From an uncultured Selenomonas sp. (GTDB lineage Bacteria; Bacillota; Negativicutes; Selenomonadales; Selenomonadaceae): a stretch of 64,000 bases of DNA. The notes beneath the pieces are model-generated. The model was given only the letters and a program-made list of their open reading frames with translations, ran no database searches and was not told the DNA's origin. Made by a program: the position numbers and the translations under genes. Below are positions 3,137-31,625 of this stretch, piece after piece; position 1 is the first letter of the stretch, and the number at the start of each line of letters is the position of its first letter. Location of the stretch: contig CAMVGU010000007.1 in the NCBI GenBank assembly GCA_947167105.1, positions 1 to 64,000 of the forward strand. Direction: 5' to 3'.

Positions 3137-3679
3137 TTACTCACTTGCGGTATTGACTTCCTGCAGGCCGCACAGGGCACCGGCGAAGGCGGCGGCCATG
3201 ATCTGGGCGTTGCGCCGCTTCAGTTTCCTGATGGCGGCCAGTCGGTTGGCAAAGCTTTCTCCACGCTTGAGCAGGCTGAGGTAGATGGCCAGGCTGAGAT
3301 CCCCCCGGAGGGAGGGGTCGGACTCGAAGGAGACCAGGAGCTTGCCCCGTTGCTTGGGCTTTTCGGCGGCAATCATGCCGTTGGAGACAGCCTGCACTAT
3401 GTCATCCTTGACCAGGTCGGCGGTCTGCCAGGCTTTGAAGCAGGCTTTCTTCACCTGCAGGCCGTCCCGCACCATAAAGAAGATGATCAGGGAGCAGACG
3501 GCAAGCACGCTGGGGTCGGCAGAGCTGCGGTGCAGGCAGAAGTCATAGAGCTCTGCCGGGTCGTCGCTTGTCCGCAGGCCAAGCTCGATGGTCTGGGCAA
3601 TGTCCTCGTAGCCTTTTTGGAAGAACATTCCCGCTGCCACCATGCAGCCCCTGGCCCGTTCCATGGTCTGTGCATCCAT
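3137..3679 (-). CDS. Hypothetical cytoplasmic protein
   Basis: A 180-residue, helix-rich protein with no signal peptide and no motif I can name with confidence. The end (RRNAQIMAAAFAGALCGLQ) faintly recalls the GD-hydrolase part of ADP-ribosylglycohydrolases, but the metal-binding aspartates are not there, so that link is weak. Start ATG is preceded by CAGGAGTGG. The -10 box TATAAT lies about 42 bases ahead of the start, inside the promoter-bearing repeat unit at 3721-3759, so expression probably depends on that repeat. Confidence 0.6.
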   Translation of the reverse strand: MDAQTMERARGCMVAAGMFFQKGYEDIAQTIELGLRTSDDPAELYDFCLHRSSADPSVLAVCSLIIFFMVRDGLQVKKACFKAWQTADLVKDDIVQAVSNGMIAAEKPKQRGKLLVSFESDPSLRGDLSLAIYLSLLKRGESFANRLAAIRKLKRRNAQIMAAAFAGALCGLQEVNTASE

Positions 3680-3720
3680 TTATACCACTCCTGTTTTATG
3701 TTTATGAGGTCATTTATTTG

Positions 3721-3899
3721 ATTATAACGCCATTGTTCAAGATTTCGCAAGGCGAAATCACACAGATTAGCGTTTCAACAGGCGAAGCTTGTTATAACGC
3801 CATTGTTCAAGATTTCGCAAGGCGAAATCACACAGATTAGCGTTTCGACGGCAAAGCCGTCCTAACGCCATTGTTCAAGATTTCGCAAGGCGAAATCGT
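3721..3899 (-). repeat. Three tandem copies of the promoter-bearing hairpin repeat
   Basis: Read on the minus strand, units of about 70 bp each contain the hairpin GATTTCGCcttGCGAAATC, then TTGAACAATGGCG and a -10-like box. The unit nearest gene 3679 has TATAAT (3721-3726), the middle one TATAAC, and the far one is degenerate, so only the proximal one or two should act as promoters. Between copies there is a shared AAACGCTAATCTGTG linker. The same unit is found upstream of the UDP-galactopyranose mutase gene and at 1331. Confidence 0.75.
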
Positions 3900-3925
3900 T
3901 TCTAATAACGAGGGAGGCATTGAAA

Positions 3926-4711
3926 ATGAAAAAGAACCTGCTAAAAGTCCTGGCCCTGGCCGGTGCGCTGTTCCTGCTGGCGCCGGCAGTCCCTGCAGCA
4001 GCGGCGGATTCGCAGCCGGAGCAGCCTGCGCCCCGGCAGGAGAAGCAGAAGCAGGACACGGAAAAGCCCAAAAAAGTCAAGGCCGTGCTGCCGAAGCACA
4101 AGCATACGGCGGGGTGCGAGAAGACCCAGGCGGAGCCGGTGCTTTTGGTCTGCATCCTGGATCGCTCCGGCTCCATGCACAGTCTGGCTGCCGATACCAT
4201 CGGCGGCTACAATTCCTTCCTGGCAAAGCAAAAGGCAGAGGAGGGCAAGGCCGAGCTTACCACGGTGCTGTTTGATGACCAGTATGAAGTCCTGCTGGAG
4301 CGCAAGCCCCTGGCAGAGGCCCCTGAGCTGACGGCGCGGGAATATTTCGCGCGGGGCACGACGGCTCTGCTTGACGCGGTGGGCAAGACCATTATGACTA
4401 CCGCAGGCAGCATGGAGAAGGAGGGCATTTGCCCCCAGCGCCGCAAGGTGCTGTTCATGATTATGACGGATGGCCTGGAAAATGCCAGCCGGGAGTACAA
4501 GCGCGAGAAGGTCAGGGACATGATCACCGAGGCCCAGGAGAAATACGGCTGGCAGTTCATCTTTATGGGCGCCAATATCGACTCCTTCGCAGAGGCACAG
4601 TCCCTGGGCATTGACAGAAAGAACGCCATGAACTACGAAGCCAGCGGCGAGGGTGTGCAGGCTTCCTTCCAGCAGATGGACAGGGCCGCCACCGCAGCCA
4701 GGAGAAATTAA
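3926..4711 (+). CDS. Exported von Willebrand factor A domain protein
   Basis: An N-terminal signal peptide (lysines, hydrophobic LAGALFLLAPAVPAAAA core) leads to a charged linker and a vWA domain. The MIDAS residues are visible: DRSGS, the later GTTAL threonine, and MTDG with its aspartate. Close relatives of this small vWA type are normally cytoplasmic, so the signal peptide is notable. Start ATG at 3926 is chosen over TTG 3920 because GGGAGG lies eight bases upstream. The ligand is unknown. It overlaps no gene; the next gene starts 20 bases later and may be co-transcribed. Confidence 0.8.
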   Translation: MKKNLLKVLALAGALFLLAPAVPAAAADSQPEQPAPRQEKQKQDTEKPKKVKAVLPKHKHTAGCEKTQAEPVLLVCILDRSGSMHSLAADTIGGYNSFLAKQKAEEGKAELTTVLFDDQYEVLLERKPLAEAPELTAREYFARGTTALLDAVGKTIMTTAGSMEKEGICPQRRKVLFMIMTDGLENASREYKREKVRDMITEAQEKYGWQFIFMGANIDSFAEAQSLGIDRKNAMNYEASGEGVQASFQQMDRAATAARRN

Positions 4712-4731
4712 GGAAACGGGAGGCAGGAATT

Positions 4732-5130
4732 TTGTCTGTAGAGATCGGCATGAAATATGAATCCAGGGAACTGGTGACGACGGAAAAAACTGCAAAGGCC
4801 ATGGGCAGCGGCTCCCTGCCGGTGTACGCCACCCCCGCCATGTCCTGCCTGATGGAGAAGGCAGCGGCGCAGCTTCTGGAGGCCCAGGCAGAGCCGGGCT
4901 GGACCAGCGTGGGCGGCGCCATCTCCATTCGCCATGAGGCCCCCACCCCTGTAGGCGCTGCTGTCCGGGCCGAGGCTGAGGTGACGGCGGCGGAGGGGCG
5001 CCGGGTGGAGTTTAAGGTGGCGGCCTTTGATGAGGCCGGGCAGATCGGACGGGGCACCCACACCCGCTTTATGGTACAGGCAGAGCCTTTCCTGGCCAAA
5101 GCCGGGGAGCGGCGGGATGGGGGAAAGTGA
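4732..5130 (+). CDS. Hotdog-fold thioesterase (FlK-like)
   Basis: The 132-residue protein resembles the fluoroacetyl-CoA-thioesterase-like hotdog family: a conserved VYATPAMSCLMEKAA helix, then GWTSVGGAISIRHEAPTPVG and a final RGTHTRFMV strand. Such enzymes hydrolyse acyl-CoA thioesters in the cytoplasm; here the substrate is unknown. TTG start follows GGGAGGCAGG. Its last codons overlap the start of the NusG-II gene, indicating co-translation with it. Confidence 0.8.
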   Translation: MSVEIGMKYESRELVTTEKTAKAMGSGSLPVYATPAMSCLMEKAAAQLLEAQAEPGWTSVGGAISIRHEAPTPVGAAVRAEAEVTAAEGRRVEFKVAAFDEAGQIGRGTHTRFMVQAEPFLAKAGERRDGGK

Positions 5131-5521
5131 AAAGGGTTCTTCCCTGTCATTGAAACGCGCCGATTGGGCGCTGCTTTCCATCCTGCTGGCCCTGTCCTTT
5201 TTGCCCCTGGCCTTTCCGGGGCAGCAGGGGGCCTGCTATGCGGATATCACCTTGAAGGGCGAGCTTTACCGCCGGGTGCTGCTGACAGGGCACCGGGGCA
5301 CGGAGCGCTTTGAGGTGGAGACAGAGGCGGGCAGGAATGTAATCGAGGTACGGGGGGAGAGCATTGCCGTGGTTGAGGCGGACTGTCCGGACAAGATTTG
5401 CGTGGGGTCAGGGGGGCTTTCCAGGCCCGGCGAGACTGCGGCCTGCCTGCCCCATGGCCTGCTGCTGGAAGTGAAGGGGGGCAGCTCCCCCGCACAGGAT
5501 GATGTGCTGATGGCTCATTGA
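5117..5521 (+). CDS. NusG domain II-containing membrane-anchored protein
   Basis: After a single transmembrane segment (WALLSILLALSFLPLAF) comes an extracytoplasmic NusG-II domain with the signature cysteines and loop (DCPDKICVGSGG, then CLPHGLLLEVKG). In many Firmicutes these proteins accompany FMN-dependent or redox membrane systems; no such partner is seen nearby. ATG at 5117 overlaps the thioesterase gene by 14 bases. The longer in-frame start at 5027 would lie inside that gene and is rejected. Confidence 0.85.
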   Translation: MGESEKGSSLSLKRADWALLSILLALSFLPLAFPGQQGACYADITLKGELYRRVLLTGHRGTERFEVETEAGRNVIEVRGESIAVVEADCPDKICVGSGGLSRPGETAACLPHGLLLEVKGGSSPAQDDVLMAH

Positions 5522-5542
5522 TGGTATGATAGAGGTGGGGCT

Positions 5543-6259
5543 TTGTTTAGGGAAGAAATGCTCGCGGCAGCCACGGCCTATGGGCTGGAGCTGACAGGGC
5601 AGCAACTGGAGCGCTTCGTGCGCTATGAGGAACTGCTGCTGGAGTGGAATGAAAAGATGAACCTCACGGCCATTACGGAGCCGGGGGAGATTGCCGTCAA
5701 GCATATGGTAGATTCCCTGTCCGCCTGGGACGGGGAGCTGATAAAGCCGGGCACGCGCTTGCTGGATGTGGGCACGGGGGCGGGCTTTCCCGGCCTGCCC
5801 CTGGCGATTTTCGTGCCTGGGCTCAGGCTGACGCTGATGGATTCCCTGGCCAAGCGGGTGGGCTTCCTGGAAGCCGTGGTGAGGGAACTGGGGCTTGAGG
5901 ATGTCACCTGTGTCCACGCACGGGCGGAGGATGCGGCCCGCAGGCAGGAGTACCGGGAGCAGTATGACCTGGCAGTCTCCCGGGCCGTTGCCCGCCTGCC
6001 GGTACTGGCGGAATTCGCCCTGCCCTTCGTGAGAACAGGGGGCTTTTTCCTGGCCCTGAAAGGTGCGGCCTGGCAGGAAGAAATGGCAGAGGCCGGGCGG
6101 GCTGTGAGCCTCCTGGGGGGCGGGCAGATGCAGGCGCGCCAGGTGCATTTGCCGGGGCTTGCAGACAGGCGGGCCATCATCACCATACCCAAGGTGAAGC
6201 CCACGCCGAAGTCCTACCCCAGAAAGGCAGGGACGCCTGCCAAAAAGCCCTTGGGCTAA
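5543..6259 (+). CDS. rsmG: 16S rRNA (guanine527-N7)-methyltransferase
   Basis: RsmG (GidB) methylates G527 in 16S rRNA with S-adenosylmethionine. The SAM loop DVGTGAGFPGLPLA lies near residue 75, and the family segments YEELLLEWNEKMNLTAI and DLAVSRAVARLPVL are present. Length (238) is typical. The TTG start follows GAGGTGGGG. RsmG is usually near gidA or parAB; here it follows a thioesterase and a NusG-II gene, which is an unremarkable but different setting. Confidence 0.95.
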   Translation: MFREEMLAAATAYGLELTGQQLERFVRYEELLLEWNEKMNLTAITEPGEIAVKHMVDSLSAWDGELIKPGTRLLDVGTGAGFPGLPLAIFVPGLRLTLMDSLAKRVGFLEAVVRELGLEDVTCVHARAEDAARRQEYREQYDLAVSRAVARLPVLAEFALPFVRTGGFFLALKGAAWQEEMAEAGRAVSLLGGGQMQARQVHLPGLADRRAIITIPKVKPTPKSYPRKAGTPAKKPLG

Positions 6260-25008: not shown

Positions 25009-25139
25009 GGTGCGCTAGGCGGCGCTCTTCTGACCTGACGGACAGAGATCAGAGGCTGTCATCCTTTTCTTTTCGTACTCAAACTTCCCACATCAACAAT
25101 AAGGCACAAGCCTTAGAAATAGCGAGGTTTTGCCGATAA

Positions 25140-25316
25140 AAAAGGCGAAAAGCCTCAAACTTTGGTACAATAGAAGGCTTGCGGTCTTTGTTAGATTGTG
25201 TGGAATCCATGGAACAGGATGATTTCCTGCTGAAGGACGGAACCCGCATTCCCATCAGCCGCCGCAAGCGGCAGGATGTAAAGATTGCCTATATGAACCA
25301 CCTGCTGGGGCTGTGA
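25140..25316 (+). pseudogene. C-terminal remnant of a LytTR response regulator
   Basis: An open stretch with no good start ends in VESMEQDDFLLKDGTRIPIS, then RRKRQDVKIAY and a short hydrophobic tail. This is the typical end of a LytTR DNA-binding domain (flexible DDFLLKDG hairpin, then IPISRRKR). The receiver domain and most of the LytTR fold are missing. It lies convergent to two sensor-kinase genes, so it is probably the remains of their cognate regulator. A terminator whose stem includes its stop codon is intact. Confidence 0.65.
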
Positions 25317-25339
25317 ATCTACTCACAGCCCCTTTTTTT
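25307..25339. terminator. Terminator between the LytTR remnant and the kinase genes
   Basis: GGGGCTGTGA and TCACAGCCCC arms with a 6-base loop and a run of seven T on the plus strand; the stem contains the LytTR remnant's stop codon. Confidence 0.8.
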
Positions 25340-26230
25340 GGCAGTTTCGTCTCCGGCTTCCTTTTCAAACCTCTCCTGCATGGCTCGGATGTGCCGGAGT
25401 GCATTTTCCTCATCTCCGGCTGTGAGCAAGGCGTGGATGAGACGGTAATTGTGGCGCAGGTCGTGGCGCAGGACGGAGATATGCCGCGTGTTTTCCTCCA
25501 GCCGTTTTGCCTCTTCCAGAAGCTCTTTGCGGTTCCTTTCCATGCGCAGGTTAGCCAAAACCAGTGCTCTTTGTTGCTGAGTCCTGCGATGGGCCTCGAC
25601 GATAAGGGAATAGAAAAGGAAAAAGAAGACGGGCAGGAAAAGGCGGGTCAGGCGACCGCCAAAACTGGGCAGGAAAGTCAGCCTGACAATGGGGAGAACG
25701 GTGCCCAGCCAGAAAGCAGAGGGAAGCAGGGCAACACATAGCCGGAGTACCCGGTCTTTTGGAAAAGGATCTTGCAAAAGCGCCGTGAAGATGTGTTTTG
25801 CCAGGGGAAAAACAAGGGCAAAGAGAAGGATATAGCACAGGAGATGGACAGTCAAAAGCTCGCTCCCGTTGCTGCCGTACCGCAGCCAAATCGCCATACC
25901 GGCAAAGGATTGGAGCATGAATGCCCAGAGTGCCTGCATCCCGAATACGAAGATGTGTGCCTGGGGAGGACGTCTGATGAGCCAAAGGGAGATAGCTACA
26001 TAGGGTATCCAGCCGAAGAAGAAAATCAGCTTGAATGTGCCGAGACTGAGTCCTGCCCAGTGCAGGAAGGTCAGAATGGCACCGAATCCTAGCAAACTCC
26101 AGCCGAGGAGATAGCACCACAGCCGCTGCCGTTCCCCGGAGAACATGCCTCTCCGAAAGGGTAGATAGCGAAGATAGGCTCCCGCCAACTGAATCAGAGT
26201 TGCCAGGACGGCAAAGGAAATCATCTGCAT
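25319..26230 (-). CDS. AgrC-like sensor kinase lacking an ATPase domain (phospho-acceptor half)
   Basis: About six hydrophobic segments (residues 1-210) are followed by a short coiled coil and a DHp-like helix with VLRHDLRHNYRLIHALL; His256 is the expected phospho-acceptor. The protein stops at residue 303, shortly after this helix, with no N, G1 or G2 boxes, so it cannot bind ATP. Its start overlaps the end of the upstream kinase gene by 10 bases, which couples their translation. The upstream partner has an ATPase domain but no acceptor histidine. The pair may work as a heterodimer. Confidence 0.75.
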   Translation of the reverse strand: MQMISFAVLATLIQLAGAYLRYLPFRRGMFSGERQRLWCYLLGWSLLGFGAILTFLHWAGLSLGTFKLIFFFGWIPYVAISLWLIRRPPQAHIFVFGMQALWAFMLQSFAGMAIWLRYGSNGSELLTVHLLCYILLFALVFPLAKHIFTALLQDPFPKDRVLRLCVALLPSAFWLGTVLPIVRLTFLPSFGGRLTRLFLPVFFFLFYSLIVEAHRRTQQQRALVLANLRMERNRKELLEEAKRLEENTRHISVLRHDLRHNYRLIHALLTAGDEENALRHIRAMQERFEKEAGDETAKKRGCE

Positions 26231-27552
26231 GGAGTTTCATCCCTCCAGTACATGAGCAGACGGACACAGCCATTTTCCTGAGTAAAGGCGGCATAGCCTT
26301 CGTATTTTTCCAGAAACATCTTGAGAGAAACCATGCCAGTGCCGTGTCCCGAGCGCTCGGTCATGGGCAGGCCATCATCTCCCAACCGGAGTGGGCGGGT
26401 GCATGGGTTAAGGGTGGAGAGGACGCACTTTTTTCCGTCATGCTGGACGGTCAGGGATATGCCTCTTTTGTCCCTGTTTTCCTGCTTGGCAGCCTCCATG
26501 GCATTTTCCAAGAGATTTGAGAGCAGCACGGCAAGATCGCTTTCCTCCACCTGAAGGGGGGCTGGGAGATTCACCTTCGTGCGAAAGGATAAGCCAATGG
26601 CATCGGCCTTTGTCTGATAGATGGAAATCGCAGCATTGACCAGGGGAGCATCGGAAATTTTTTTCAGGACGTGAGGCTGGATCCCGTTTGTCCGTTCCTC
26701 TACCAGTGCCAGTGTTTTCTGCCTTTGCCCCGACAGAAGCATGGTTTCCAGTGTCCGGCAGTCCCGGATGATGGCGTTCTCGAAGTCTTTCAGGAAGGTG
26801 AGCTCCTGCTGTTTTCTCGTTGCATCGTCCCGGATGGAGACGATTTCCTCCCGGAGGATCTGCGCCTTCCGTTTCCTTTGGGCAAACTCATGGAAGCTGT
26901 GGGCGGCCAACACCTGATACCGATAGAGGGCAAAAAACACCAAGGGCAAATACAGGCGGGAAAGCCTCTCTTCCCACGAGTGCCAGAGCCGGCCGTCCGC
27001 AAGCATCAGGAAAGGCGGCGCCATCAGCACCGCTGGCAAGAGAGCCAGAAAATTCCCCAGGGGGAGTTCGTCAAGAACTTCGGGGCAAGGCAGGAGACGG
27101 GAAAAAATCCATTTCTCCCAAGGAAGAAGCACCAAAAACCATAGGAGGTACAGAGTCCCATGAACCAGAATGACAGCGAGGTCGTTGCTGTCCGGCAGAA
27201 AAACAGCCACCAGGATACTGCTCCAGTTATGCTGCATGAGACTCCATAAGGCAGACATGCCGAAGACATAGATATGCTGGCGCACCATGTGGCGCAGGCT
27301 CCCCATGAAAATAGCCAAATAGGGAATCCAGCCCGCCAGCAGCAAGAGTTTGTAGGCGGCAGCAGTTTCAAGAGTGCGAAAGGCGAAGGTGTAGACGGGA
27401 AGGATAAGAATCGTCCAGAGAAGGAGCCGCTGCCAGTATGTGCGTCTTTCGGGGGGGGATATCTGTTTGCGGAATGCCAGGTATCTCAAATAGGCATCGG
27501 CAAGCTGTACAGAAGCAACAAGGAAAGAGAGAAGCAGGTTGAGATTATTCAT
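26221..27552 (-). CDS. AgrC-like sensor kinase with ATPase but no phospho-acceptor histidine
   Basis: The N-terminal membrane part is homologous to that of the neighbouring 25319-26230 protein (both contain QLA-AYLRYL-F near the start). A GHKL ATPase domain is complete: N-box LLSNLLENAMEAA near 343-355 and G-box SGHGTGM at 401-407. In the helix where the histidine should be (residues 257-272) it reads FENAIIRDCRTLETMLL, so both family histidines are replaced. ATG 27552 is preferred: GAGGT precedes it and it aligns with the partner's N-terminus. 443 residues. Confidence 0.78.
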   Translation of the reverse strand: MNNLNLLLSFLVASVQLADAYLRYLAFRKQISPPERRTYWQRLLLWTILILPVYTFAFRTLETAAAYKLLLLAGWIPYLAIFMGSLRHMVRQHIYVFGMSALWSLMQHNWSSILVAVFLPDSNDLAVILVHGTLYLLWFLVLLPWEKWIFSRLLPCPEVLDELPLGNFLALLPAVLMAPPFLMLADGRLWHSWEERLSRLYLPLVFFALYRYQVLAAHSFHEFAQRKRKAQILREEIVSIRDDATRKQQELTFLKDFENAIIRDCRTLETMLLSGQRQKTLALVEERTNGIQPHVLKKISDAPLVNAAISIYQTKADAIGLSFRTKVNLPAPLQVEESDLAVLLSNLLENAMEAAKQENRDKRGISLTVQHDGKKCVLSTLNPCTRPLRLGDDGLPMTERSGHGTGMVSLKMFLEKYEGYAAFTQENGCVRLLMYWRDETPCR

Positions 27553-27600: not shown

Positions 27601-27715
27601 CATCGGTTGAAATCTCGCAATGTTATGCTAAACTGAGGGTGTCTGTTATAGAGGTGCGTTTTCCGTACCTGAGTGTAACATGCAGAGAATTTTTTTACAA
27701 CAGGGAGATGATTCG

Positions 27716-28378
27716 ATGACAAAGAAAATGTCAAGGATTGCGCTGACAATGGTGGCTCTTCTGGCGGTTCTGTGCTTGGCTGGATGCGGAGCAGAGAAGC
27801 CTAAGGAGAGCGCGGACAAGGCAGTGCTGGGCTGGGCGGAAATGTATGCCTACGGCGTTTCGGACAACGAGTCTGCTACGGGCATGACCAAGGCACAGAG
27901 TGACCAGGTTTCGGAAAAGGTCATAGGAGATATGCTCAAGGCATTCAGCATGTTTCCTTTGAGCCAGCAGAATGTGGAGGCCATGACCACCGAATACATT
28001 ACCAAGCTTCAGGCGGCCATGGAAATCAAGACCAAAATCAAGAAGGACGATGCCGAGCATCCTGTCGTGGAAGTCAGTGCCGCTGTCATCGACCATCAGG
28101 GTGCGGACAAGCTTGCACAGACAAGTGAAGATATGATCGCTCTCGGCGTTGTTCTGGGACAGCTTCGCGCACAAGGATTCACCGACGAGCAACTGAAGGC
28201 AGACGCTGATTTTCAAAACGCTGTTATGGAGTGCGTCAGAAGCTATGTCGATGAAATCCCTTTGAAGGCAACCCAGACCTTCGAGGTGAATTGTTCTGCA
28301 GATAAGGGCGATGACGGCAAGATGTATTGGGTGCCAGAGGATCCGCAAGCCTTGATGAATTTCATTACAGGTATGTAA
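27716..28378 (+). CDS. Lipoprotein, DUF5105-like
   Basis: A signal peptide ending in the lipobox LCLAGC marks a surface lipoprotein of 220 residues. The mature part begins EKPKESADKAVLGWAEMYAYG, minus its lead, and resembles small Firmicute lipoproteins with a DUF5105 or DUF4878-like fold; this is a tentative match. ATG 27716 follows GGGAGATGATTCG. It is divergent from the sensor-kinase pair across direct repeats that look like a LytTR operator, so it may be the output gene. Confidence 0.65.
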   Translation: MTKKMSRIALTMVALLAVLCLAGCGAEKPKESADKAVLGWAEMYAYGVSDNESATGMTKAQSDQVSEKVIGDMLKAFSMFPLSQQNVEAMTTEYITKLQAAMEIKTKIKKDDAEHPVVEVSAAVIDHQGADKLAQTSEDMIALGVVLGQLRAQGFTDEQLKADADFQNAVMECVRSYVDEIPLKATQTFEVNCSADKGDDGKMYWVPEDPQALMNFITGM

Positions 28379-28426
28379 GACGACAGCTGGCCTTTGGAAG
28401 ATGTATTTTTAAGGAGGACGGTGAAC

Positions 28427-28642
28427 ATGAAGAAGCAGGTAAGTGCGATTTTGGCAGCGATGGTATTTGCAGTGGGAGCCCAGGGCGTAGCAAGTGCGGC
28501 TCCGATTGCCTCTATGGGCGTGGACAATCCGGCTTTTGTCATGCTGGATGATGACGAGGACGTGACTCTCGTGGTGGATGAGCCCGTAGAGTCCGGCGAC
28601 ATTCTCGTGGATGAGGATGGAGATGTCTGGGAAGTCCAGTAA
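28427..28642 (+). CDS. Small secreted acidic protein
   Basis: A 71-residue product with a clear signal peptide (KKQVSAILAAMVFAVGAQ, cleavage after ASA) and a mature part of about 45 residues that is very acidic (LDDDEDVTLVVDEPVESGD). ATG 28427 follows AAGGAGGACGGTGAAC. No family is recognised. It is 48 bases after the lipoprotein and ends at a terminator, so the two are probably one operon. A role as extracellular signal or metal/cation-binding peptide is possible but unsupported. Confidence 0.6.
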   Translation: MKKQVSAILAAMVFAVGAQGVASAAPIASMGVDNPAFVMLDDDEDVTLVVDEPVESGDILVDEDGDVWEVQ

Positions 28643-28755: not shown

Positions 28756-29589
28756 ATGAATATGCTGCAAAATGTGCTTCATTGGAAATATACGCAAAGA
28801 ATCATCACTTTTGTTATTCTTCTTAATGCCGCAGTCCTGGGGTTATTGACCAATAAAGGGTTGTCGGCGGAAGAAACATTACTTTTAGAGATAATAGACA
28901 AATGCTGTTTGCTTGTTTTTGTGGTCGAACTAATTGCCAAGCTGCTGGCTTATCGTCGAAATTTTTGGTCGGATGGCTGGAATATTTTTGATTTTGTCGT
29001 TGTCGTAAGCTCCATCATCTTTATTTCCTCCAATGTTTCCGTCATACGGGCCTTCCGCATTTTCAGATTGCTCAAGGCATTGGCTGAATTTCCGGAATTG
29101 CAGGTGTTGGTTTCTGCAATGCTGAAGGCCATACCCAGCATGACCTGGGCTTTGCTTTTGCTGTTTATAATATTTTATATTTTTGCCGTTTTCGGAAGTA
29201 CCTTGTATGGAGATGCCTTCCCGGAGTTATTTGGGGATATTGGAGACTCTATTTTTACTCTGTTTCAAGTTATGACGTTTGAATCATGGGCAACAGCCGT
29301 GGCCAGGCCAATCATGGAAGTGCATCCTTATGCTTGGGTATTCTTTTTGGTGTTTATTCTCCTTACTTCCATTACGCTTCTGAATGTAATGGTGGGGATC
29401 GTAGTGGAAGCTGTTGCTCAAATTTCTGAAGCCAACAGGCAAAAACAGCTTTCTGCTGAGGCGAAAAATCTATTCTCTGATGTGCGCGATACCGAGAAGA
29501 TTGACAAGGAAATTCGTGAGCATATTGCAAAAATTGAAGAACTGCTCAAAGCAAGAGGACACACTCAGAAAACGGAGGTGGCAGAATGA
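28756..29589 (+). CDS. Bacterial voltage-gated sodium channel (NaChBac family)
   Basis: A one-domain, six-helix ion channel. S4 carries regularly spaced charges (R98, R101, R104, K107 in VIRAFRIFRLLKAL). The pore loop has TFESWA at 174-179, the NaChBac/NavAb TLESWS-type sodium filter, and S6 is followed by a long C-terminal coiled coil (residues 225-270) as in this family. 277 residues. Its stop overlaps the start of a clostripain-type lipoprotein gene (ATGA), which is an unusual partner. Local base composition is more AT-rich than in surrounding genes. Confidence 0.9.
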   Translation: MNMLQNVLHWKYTQRIITFVILLNAAVLGLLTNKGLSAEETLLLEIIDKCCLLVFVVELIAKLLAYRRNFWSDGWNIFDFVVVVSSIIFISSNVSVIRAFRIFRLLKALAEFPELQVLVSAMLKAIPSMTWALLLLFIIFYIFAVFGSTLYGDAFPELFGDIGDSIFTLFQVMTFESWATAVARPIMEVHPYAWVFFLVFILLTSITLLNVMVGIVVEAVAQISEANRQKQLSAEAKNLFSDVRDTEKIDKEIREHIAKIEELLKARGHTQKTEVAE

Positions 29590-31625
29590 TGGGGATTGAA
29601 GGAAGAAATATTTTTGGAAGACTCCTGAAATCGTTGCTGTTCCTGTTTTTCACTATGACAGCTTTTCTTATTTCCGGTTGCTTTGAGGATGAATCATCCG
29701 ACAAATTTATCACATCTAAATTTGCCAATGCCTATGGGGCGGAGGACAGTTGGCTCGTTTACTGGTATGTGTGCGGTACGGATTTGGAAACCGGGTTGGG
29801 AGCTGCCACGATGGACATGGAAGAATTGTTTGAAGTGGGTCTACCCTCCAATGTGAAAGTCCTCATCCAGACGGGAGGGGCGCAAGAGTGGCAGAACGAT
29901 ACCATGGAAGCTCATGCCATCGGTCGTTATCTCTATGACGCGGACGGCCTCCACGAACTGGCCCAGGTAGAAGATGCCGACATGGGAAGCCCGGAGACAT
30001 TGGCGGATTTCCTGCAATATGGAAAGGACAACTTCACGGCAGACCATCGGGCATTTGTCTTCTGGGATCACGGTGGAGGCAGCGCCGCCGGAGTCTGTCT
30101 GGATGAACGCACGGGCAACAGTCTCAAGCTGAACGACATCCGCCAGGCCTTTACCGCCGTGCATCCTGCTGTCCCGGAAAATCCTCCCTTCGAGCTCATC
30201 GGATTCGATGCCTGTCTCATGGCAACTTACGATGTGGCGAATACGCTACATGGCCTTGGCCGTTACATGGTGGCCTCGGAGGAAATAGAGCCAGGCAACG
30301 GCTGGGAGTACACGGGCTGGGTCAGAACATTGGGGAAGAATCCCGCCATGGGCGGTGCAGCTCTGGGGCAGGTCATCTGCGATAGCTATATGGAAGGATG
30401 CGTAGAATACGGCACAGAGGATGCGGTCACTCTTTCCGTCATAGATTTGGCTCAGATGCCCGCATTGCGTTCAGCTTATGAGAATTTTGGTCTGGAGGCT
30501 CTTCGCCATGCTCGGGAAAATCCCCGCGGTTTTTTTTCCTCCTTCGGCCGGGAAGCCAGGCAAGCGGAAAACTACGGTGGCAATACCCGTGACCAAGGCT
30601 TTGCCAATATGGTGGATTTGGGGGATCTTGCCAAAGAAACGGCAAACTTGTTGCCAGATACGTCCCGCAGTCTCATCGGCAGCATCGAACACGCCGTTAT
30701 CTACAAAGTTCATGGCGATTATAGAGAAAAGAGCAGCGGCATATCCGGCTTTTATTCCTATAACGGCGATGCGGAGAACTTCGCGATATATGCGGCGCAG
30801 GATGCGGCACCCCTGTCAATCAAATGCCTGTATCACTACCTAATCTATGGGGAAATGCCGCCGGAAGCCGGGACACTCCTCTCCGGCGGCTCACCGGGAA
30901 GCCCCGCTCTCTCCCTTCCCTCCTCTGGTCACCCCTCCCAAAGTATTTTTTCTGTGGCCTCCTTGGAAGATCTGGTCGTGGATGTGGACGGGGATGGCAA
31001 TTCCTTTGTGCGCTTGTCCGAAGAACAGATGGAACTTCTGGCGAGTATCCATTGCCAGCTCATCTACATAGATGATGAGGATGATGTCATACTATATCTC
31101 GGCAGCGATGCCGATATTGATGCCGATTGGGAGAGGGGCATATTCAAGGATAATTTCCGAGGCGTTTGGCCAATGCTTGACGGTCATCCAGTATATATTG
31201 AAATTACAGCGGAGGGTGATGACTACAACATCTATTCCGTCCCCATCAAGTTGAATGGCATGGAGTGCAATCTGCAGGTGGCCTACACCTATGGGGATGG
31301 CAAGTATCACATTCTGGGAGCCAGAAAGGGCATCGGCGATAGCGGCATGGGAGATCGTAATCTCATCAAACTGAAACGGGGAGATACCATCACCACCATT
31401 CACTACGGCATGACGATTTCCGGCGATGATGAGGATTTCACGGCGGTAGATGTGGACACCTTCACTGTCGGTGACGCCCCTGTGTTCCAGGAGGAGGAAC
31501 TGGGCAACGGCGTGTACGGCTATTGTTTTGAATTTGTAACGCCCCTAGATGACAGCGCAATGTCCCGTATGGTACAATTTACGCTGGAGAACGGAAAAAT
31601 TACAACAACGATAGAAGAAATCTGA
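29586..31625 (+). CDS. Clostripain-type (C11) cysteine peptidase lipoprotein
   Basis: A lipobox (LISGC, Cys32) anchors the protein outside the membrane. The C11 domain follows: WYVCGTDLE, then the catalytic histidine in FWDHGGG (His162) and cysteine in GFDACLMA (Cys210). Such peptidases usually cut after arginine and self-process. After about residue 430 there is a proline/serine-rich linker and a C-terminal region of unknown fold. Translation is coupled to the sodium-channel gene by a 4-base overlap, behind GGAGGTGGCAG. Confidence 0.85.
   Translation: MMGIEGRNIFGRLLKSLLFLFFTMTAFLISGCFEDESSDKFITSKFANAYGAEDSWLVYWYVCGTDLETGLGAATMDMEELFEVGLPSNVKVLIQTGGAQEWQNDTMEAHAIGRYLYDADGLHELAQVEDADMGSPETLADFLQYGKDNFTADHRAFVFWDHGGGSAAGVCLDERTGNSLKLNDIRQAFTAVHPAVPENPPFELIGFDACLMATYDVANTLHGLGRYMVASEEIEPGNGWEYTGWVRTLGKNPAMGGAALGQVICDSYMEGCVEYGTEDAVTLSVIDLAQMPALRSAYENFGLEALRHARENPRGFFSSFGREARQAENYGGNTRDQGFANMVDLGDLAKETANLLPDTSRSLIGSIEHAVIYKVHGDYREKSSGISGFYSYNGDAENFAIYAAQDAAPLSIKCLYHYLIYGEMPPEAGTLLSGGSPGSPALSLPSSGHPSQSIFSVASLEDLVVDVDGDGNSFVRLSEEQMELLASIHCQLIYIDDEDDVILYLGSDADIDADWERGIFKDNFRGVWPMLDGHPVYIEITAEGDDYNIYSVPIKLNGMECNLQVAYTYGDGKYHILGARKGIGDSGMGDRNLIKLKRGDTITTIHYGMTISGDDEDFTAVDVDTFTVGDAPVFQEEELGNGVYGYCFEFVTPLDDSAMSRMVQFTLENGKITTTIEEI

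Follow-up and report, generated by a model that had tools for sequence, protein, structure and literature searches.

Two overlapping genes in a 64,000-nucleotide stretch of DNA from an uncultured Selenomonas sp. (the window; Table 1) probably encode the two subunits of an obligate split sensor kinase of the HPK10/AgrC-like type, derived from tandem duplication of a whole kinase. What can be observed directly is that the losses in the two genes are complementary, that the pattern recurs among relatives, with the roles swapped in some of them, and that it comes with coupled translation, purifying selection in the relatives and an adjacent regulator. Because such half-pairs evolved several times, sometimes with opposite roles, the sequences suggest that their members very probably function only jointly.

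Table 1. Features of the kinase pair and the adjoining regulator remnant in the window.
Feature	Position	Strand	Details
Gene A, membrane sensor; DHp without histidine, ATPase (CA) domain intact	26221..27552	-	443 aa; ORF
Gene B, membrane protein; acceptor histidine on a DHp hairpin, ATPase domain absent	25319..26230	-	303 aa; ORF
Gene A G box GHGTGM	26332..26349	-	Sequence and motif alignment
Gene A N box NLLENAMEA	26492..26518	-	Sequence and motif alignment
Gene A degenerate H box KDFENAIIRDCR, histidine absent	26755..26790	-	Motif alignment
Gene B H box HDLRHN	25448..25465	-	His256 codon at 25463-25465; sequence and motif alignment
A/B coding overlap	26221..26230	-	ORFs; read as translational coupling
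Remnant of convergent LytTR response regulator	25176..25317	+	Last ~44 codons and stop
Apparent DDE-transposase element end, abutting the regulator remnant	25077..25176	+	Resembles element elsewhere in the genome
Terminator-like hairpin and T7	25307..25332	+	End of regulator remnant, spans gene B stop

An earlier note on this DNA had described two overlapping genes for homologous membrane sensors, the second with VLRHDLRHN and no ATPase boxes, the first with N and G boxes and FENAIIRDC replacing the histidine, and our analysis bears out each part of this description. Both reading frames are intact, they overlap by 10 bp, and their products share 31-32% identity across ~280 aa. Gene A matches HATPase_c_5 (GHKL) in a domain search (E 1e-11) with both boxes present, and the motif alignment places an N in the column where its relatives carry the acceptor histidine. 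In gene B the same domain search detects neither HATPase_c_5 nor any other ATPase domain; the protein matches the DHp profile in a search of the ORFs, has His256 within VLRHDLRHNYR, and extends little beyond the DHp helices. The RHD-type H box is thus found on gene B alone and not on the ATPase-bearing chain A. Gene A starts with an ATG at 27552, with GAGG 5 nt upstream, and if gene B started at Met3 instead, the overlap would be a 4-nt ATGA. A single kinase split by a frameshift is rejected as the origin of the pair, since A and B each have a complete homologous N-terminal sensor and the relatives are tandem paralogues; the earlier note would have taken a recently frameshifted full-length kinase at this locus as evidence against its reading, and none was found among the relatives.

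To place the pair among its relatives, 60 of these were searched and then 189 genomes of the host's bacterial family; 113 loci were fetched, and sensor, DHp and ATPase profiles were run on all of their ORFs. The query was gene A, which over-samples ATPase-bearing genes, but complete kinases were found equally readily, so the reciprocity is not forced by the search. Counting a tandem pair as strictly reciprocal when one gene has the histidine without an intact ATPase and the other has N and G boxes without the histidine, 38 of the 49 pairs qualify, or 41 of 49 if we include one with an altered G-box glycine (L075) and two cut by contig ends (L170 and L172). Among single-gene relatives, by comparison, 59 of 63 keep the histidine and both boxes (Fisher p 9e-14, computed on genes that are not independent). 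A reciprocal pattern seen at 38 of 49 tandem loci goes far beyond chance. The earlier note proposed a search for orthologous pairs showing these same losses; such pairs are present in many genera, and a sequencing or assembly artefact is unlikely given the identical pattern across many genomes. Overlaps of 4-13 nt between the two genes are the rule among relatives.

The His partner takes three forms in the 38 loci. In the majority (23) it is a protein of 286-317 aa with the sensor present and the ATPase domain absent; in 12 it is an ORF of only 100-170 aa, with at most one membrane helix and the DHp; and in 3 it retains remnants of the ATPase. All B proteins tested score under the Pfam cut-offs and are therefore easily overlooked. 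Elsewhere in the survey we find a pair, L171, whose two tandem genes are both complete, intermediate pairs (L071, L093, L102, L105, L112 and L117), a gene A that still has a histidine (LRHDLKESY, in G031) and a histidine persisting in an altered box (HNFLDGY, in G070). Pairs L069, L110, L115 and L126 deviate from the clean reciprocal pattern. The first of these (G000:C25:22000-32500, 3409-6077 on the minus strand) is a third tandem pair in the host genome; the histidine is absent from both of its genes, and in place of a LytTR regulator it has a HisKA hybrid kinase, an HD-domain regulator and a Bmp binding protein next to it.

A tree built on the sensor and DHp columns separates first genes from second genes in two clades (support 100/98 and 99/97). 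His-only members occur within the gene-1 clade (10 rows, 100/100) and within the gene-2 clade (8 rows, 100/99), and ATPase-only members are likewise found in both: in the window's lineage gene 1 provides the ATPase and gene 2 the histidine, while in another lineage it is the reverse. Constraining all ATPase-only genes to one clade, as for a single origin, is rejected (AU p 8e-60), as is a single clade of all His-only genes (AU p 5e-98). Taken together, this points to one old tandem duplication in which the roles were assigned oppositely by lineage. Independent contrasts are few, with 0 the same way and 3-4 opposite, and the sign test is not significant. The same split also exists outside the main group but within the class, in genus g10 and families f15 and f4, where B has LRHDSRHQLR and A has YREKRDH with NLVENALIA and GHGIGM; L194 is an intermediate of this separate duplication in which the ATPase has decayed. 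Because these pairs sit in a separate part of the tree (100/99), the number of independent role assignments comes to at least three. On balance we favour the view that, within the host's class, tandem duplicates of membrane HPK10-type kinases have repeatedly been resolved into obligate two-subunit kinases. The roles would have been assigned independently three times or more: with the ATPase on gene 1 and the histidine on gene 2, with the opposite order, and once again in the separate duplication of the other families; in some lineages the His subunit would afterwards have shrunk to ~100 aa.

A side observation concerns DHp position +24 (His280 of gene B), which is a histidine in 21 of 25 long B rows versus 6 of 59 others. 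His-only subunits from either gene lineage carry this histidine, as do some B's from the separate duplication, whereas ATPase subunits mostly have an aromatic residue there. The histidine is possibly a convergent mark of the acceptor role, which with so few independent contrasts is suggestive only.

The role swap also bears on a different reading, which seems to us highly improbable: that A is a regulatory pseudokinase and B only an accessory inhibitor or phosphatase, both serving a third, complete kinase. Pseudokinases such as DivL do control complete kinases, and B by itself could dephosphorylate a regulator. However, each half retains exactly the part that the other has lost, in both role orders; A keeps all its ATPase boxes, which would be superfluous in a scaffold; and the loci have one adjacent regulator each and no third kinase of the same family.

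Selection among the relatives acts on both halves. Comparisons of close relatives gave dN/dS values of 0.08-0.26 (A), 0.08-0.27 (B) and 0.04-0.19 (the His-less DHp domain of A alone); these are relative-versus-relative values, the window genes being too distant from every relative for a value of their own. The earlier note had suggested dN/dS as a check, and purifying selection on both genes in the relatives, together with the recurrent orthologous pairs, supports its view of the reciprocal loss as subfunctionalisation rather than simple decay. The histidine is kept in 44 of 44 B-type genes (partly by the definition of the type) and in 59 of 59 complete single kinases. In A-type genes the H-box positions are randomised, with ~2.4-3.2 bits at the histidine and the surrounding charged residues, while the DHp core positions remain conserved. 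This combination argues that the DHp of A is still needed, as it would be in a dimer, but no longer as an acceptor.

Structure predictions are in keeping with these assignments. The AlphaFold models have pLDDT of 88.5 (A) and 88.8 (B), and for the DHp and ATPase part of A the best PDB match is AgrC (6e52, 6e95 and 4bxi, Z 15.4-15.7), best supported in the CA domain (4bxi, 134 residues, rmsd 2.7). The model of B has helices at 190-270 and 274-299, after which the chain ends. The best Pfam match of gene B is SPOB_a, under the cut-off (13.2 bits versus 28.1, E 0.07). We rejected gene B as a Spo0B phosphotransferase, as this match is sub-threshold and the chain ends after the hairpin, without the degenerate ATPase-like C domain.

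From sequence we infer that the pair works as follows. After tandem duplication of the whole kinase, A and B would each be anchored in the membrane through related multi-helix sensor domains that perceive the signal. The catalytic domain of A would bind ATP and phosphorylate His256 of the DHp hairpin of B in trans, most likely inside an A:B heterodimer joined via the DHp four-helix bundle, and B would hand the phosphate to a LytTR response regulator. Alternatively, there may be no heterodimers, with A homodimers acting as the ATPase and phosphorylating Spo0B- or CheA3-like B homodimers on encounter. We regard such transient transfer as unlikely, even though B proteins of the short form (one membrane helix and DHp in ~100 aa) resemble minimal phosphotransfer modules, B has SPOB_a as its best if sub-cut-off match, and CheA3/CheA4 operates through brief P1-P4 contact (PMC3591291). 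The purifying selection on the hydrophobic core of A's His-less DHp speaks against it but is not decisive, because an A:A dimer predicts likewise; in fact, the sequences would look alike for an A2 plus B2 arrangement and for an A:B heterodimer. The coupling of translation at almost every locus fits co-assembly.

An intact LytTR response regulator adjoins most pairs in the relatives' loci. At the orthologous locus of G025, which has lipoprotein, small secreted protein and ion channel genes in common with the window, it is convergent to gene B. The window holds a fragment in the same arrangement, which aligns with residues 197-241 of the intact G025 regulator at 64-67.5% identity (E 5e-15). Within the element end that abuts it, 25135-25176 is a 42-bp repeat with 92-93% alike copies on contigs C6, C25 and C44 of the host genome, and these three other copies lie at intact or broken DDE transposase genes. 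To judge by these sequences, a transposon-linked deletion has left only the C-terminal part of the window pair's regulator. The host genome has only one further regulator of the subfamily that is intact, on contig C6 next to its own short-B pair. The nearest pair of G031 also has an unlinked regulator.

With the loss of the adjacent regulator, signalling by the window pair is uncertain: this copy may be re-wired to the paralogous C6 regulator or may have been recently orphaned. No end branches in the tree are longer than those of the window genes (1.15 for A and 0.92 for B, against a median of 0.36), and together with the truncated regulator this makes relaxed selection on them possible. One could go further and take the window pair as a decaying relic, in which both genes were released when the regulator was lost and their complementary losses no longer have a function. 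We are inclined to doubt this, while giving it some weight. In its favour, the regulator is down to ~44 codons beside a transposon end, the branches are long, and neither gene of the C25 pair, in the same genome, has the histidine any more. Against it, both window reading frames are intact, and conserved columns are retained as in functional relatives, 34 of 37 in the CA domain of gene A and 11 of 13 in the DHp of gene B; the unlinked regulator of G031's nearest pair and the intact paralogue on C6 also speak against decay. Whatever the fate of this copy, the split is shared in the tree with lineages that retain the regulator, and the split architecture itself, as read from these comparisons, is old and maintained.

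Near the window pair there are also genes on the plus strand for a lipoprotein (27680-28378), a small secreted protein (28394-28642) and a clostripain (Peptidase_C11, 29586-31625). C11 homologues lie near the A/B kinase family in 19 loci, single-kinase loci among them, and the three genes may belong to a peptide-signal or regulon unit. Inspection of the ORFs neighbouring the window pair revealed no AgrB/AgrD-like peptide genes.

Split kinases are already known, and what appears to be new is their repeated, role-swapped origin from tandem HPK10 paralogues; a literature search for heterodimeric HPK10 kinases or such an origin found no paper, which, given its incomplete coverage, is weak evidence of absence. 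The family amounts to a natural repeated experiment in how, once duplicated, a homodimeric enzyme turns into an obligate heteromer, with one duplicated locus resolved in opposite directions and with intermediates that range from both genes intact, through loss of the histidine while the partner's ATPase decays, to truncated and minimal forms. It also provides natural one-way kinase pairs on which to test trans-phosphorylation and the switch-like behaviour predicted for split kinases, and it reveals a class of small His-only proteins that escapes standard domain-library cut-offs.

Among the closest known systems are AgrC, ComD and BlpH of the HPK10 (GHKL) type, which share with the A/B family a polytopic N-terminus, an RHD-motif DHp, HATPase_c_5 and a LytTR regulator. 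These form homodimers in which each chain carries all the boxes, whereas in A/B they are divided between two proteins. Cisar et al. reportedly studied laboratory-made complementing AgrC mutants as dimers in 2009, in work that PMC6755735 cites. In HK1/HK2/TcrA, adjacent ATP-binding and His-bearing proteins with one regulator are regarded as one kinase divided over two genes, and on these generally known roles the system is like A/B; unlike HK1 and HK2, however, A and B have a homologous N-terminal sensor in both halves, the mark of duplication followed by reciprocal loss. This Mycobacterium tuberculosis system (Rv0600c-Rv0602c) is listed in PMC8965865. Hik36/Hik43 (PilL-N/PilL-C) of Synechocystis (PMC7656254) similarly spreads one kinase function over two genes with a dedicated regulator, but consists of a cheA homologue whose two parts lie at distant loci, not of paralogues with complementary losses. 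In CheA3/CheA4 of Rhodobacter sphaeroides (PMC3591291), as in A/B, the ATPase and the phosphoacceptor histidine are on separate proteins, neither of which autophosphorylates alone, as is predicted for A and B from their sequences. There the ATPase protein phosphorylates the separate His protein in vitro and theory predicts switch-like responses, and the separated domains of EnvZ also work as a split kinase in vitro (PMC3591291). CheA3 and CheA4 are cytoplasmic CheA-type (P1/P4) proteins of chemotaxis clusters, whereas A and B are membrane HPK10-type tandem paralogues in one operon, and, unlike CheA3/CheA4, pairs of the A/B type have arisen repeatedly and with their roles swapped.
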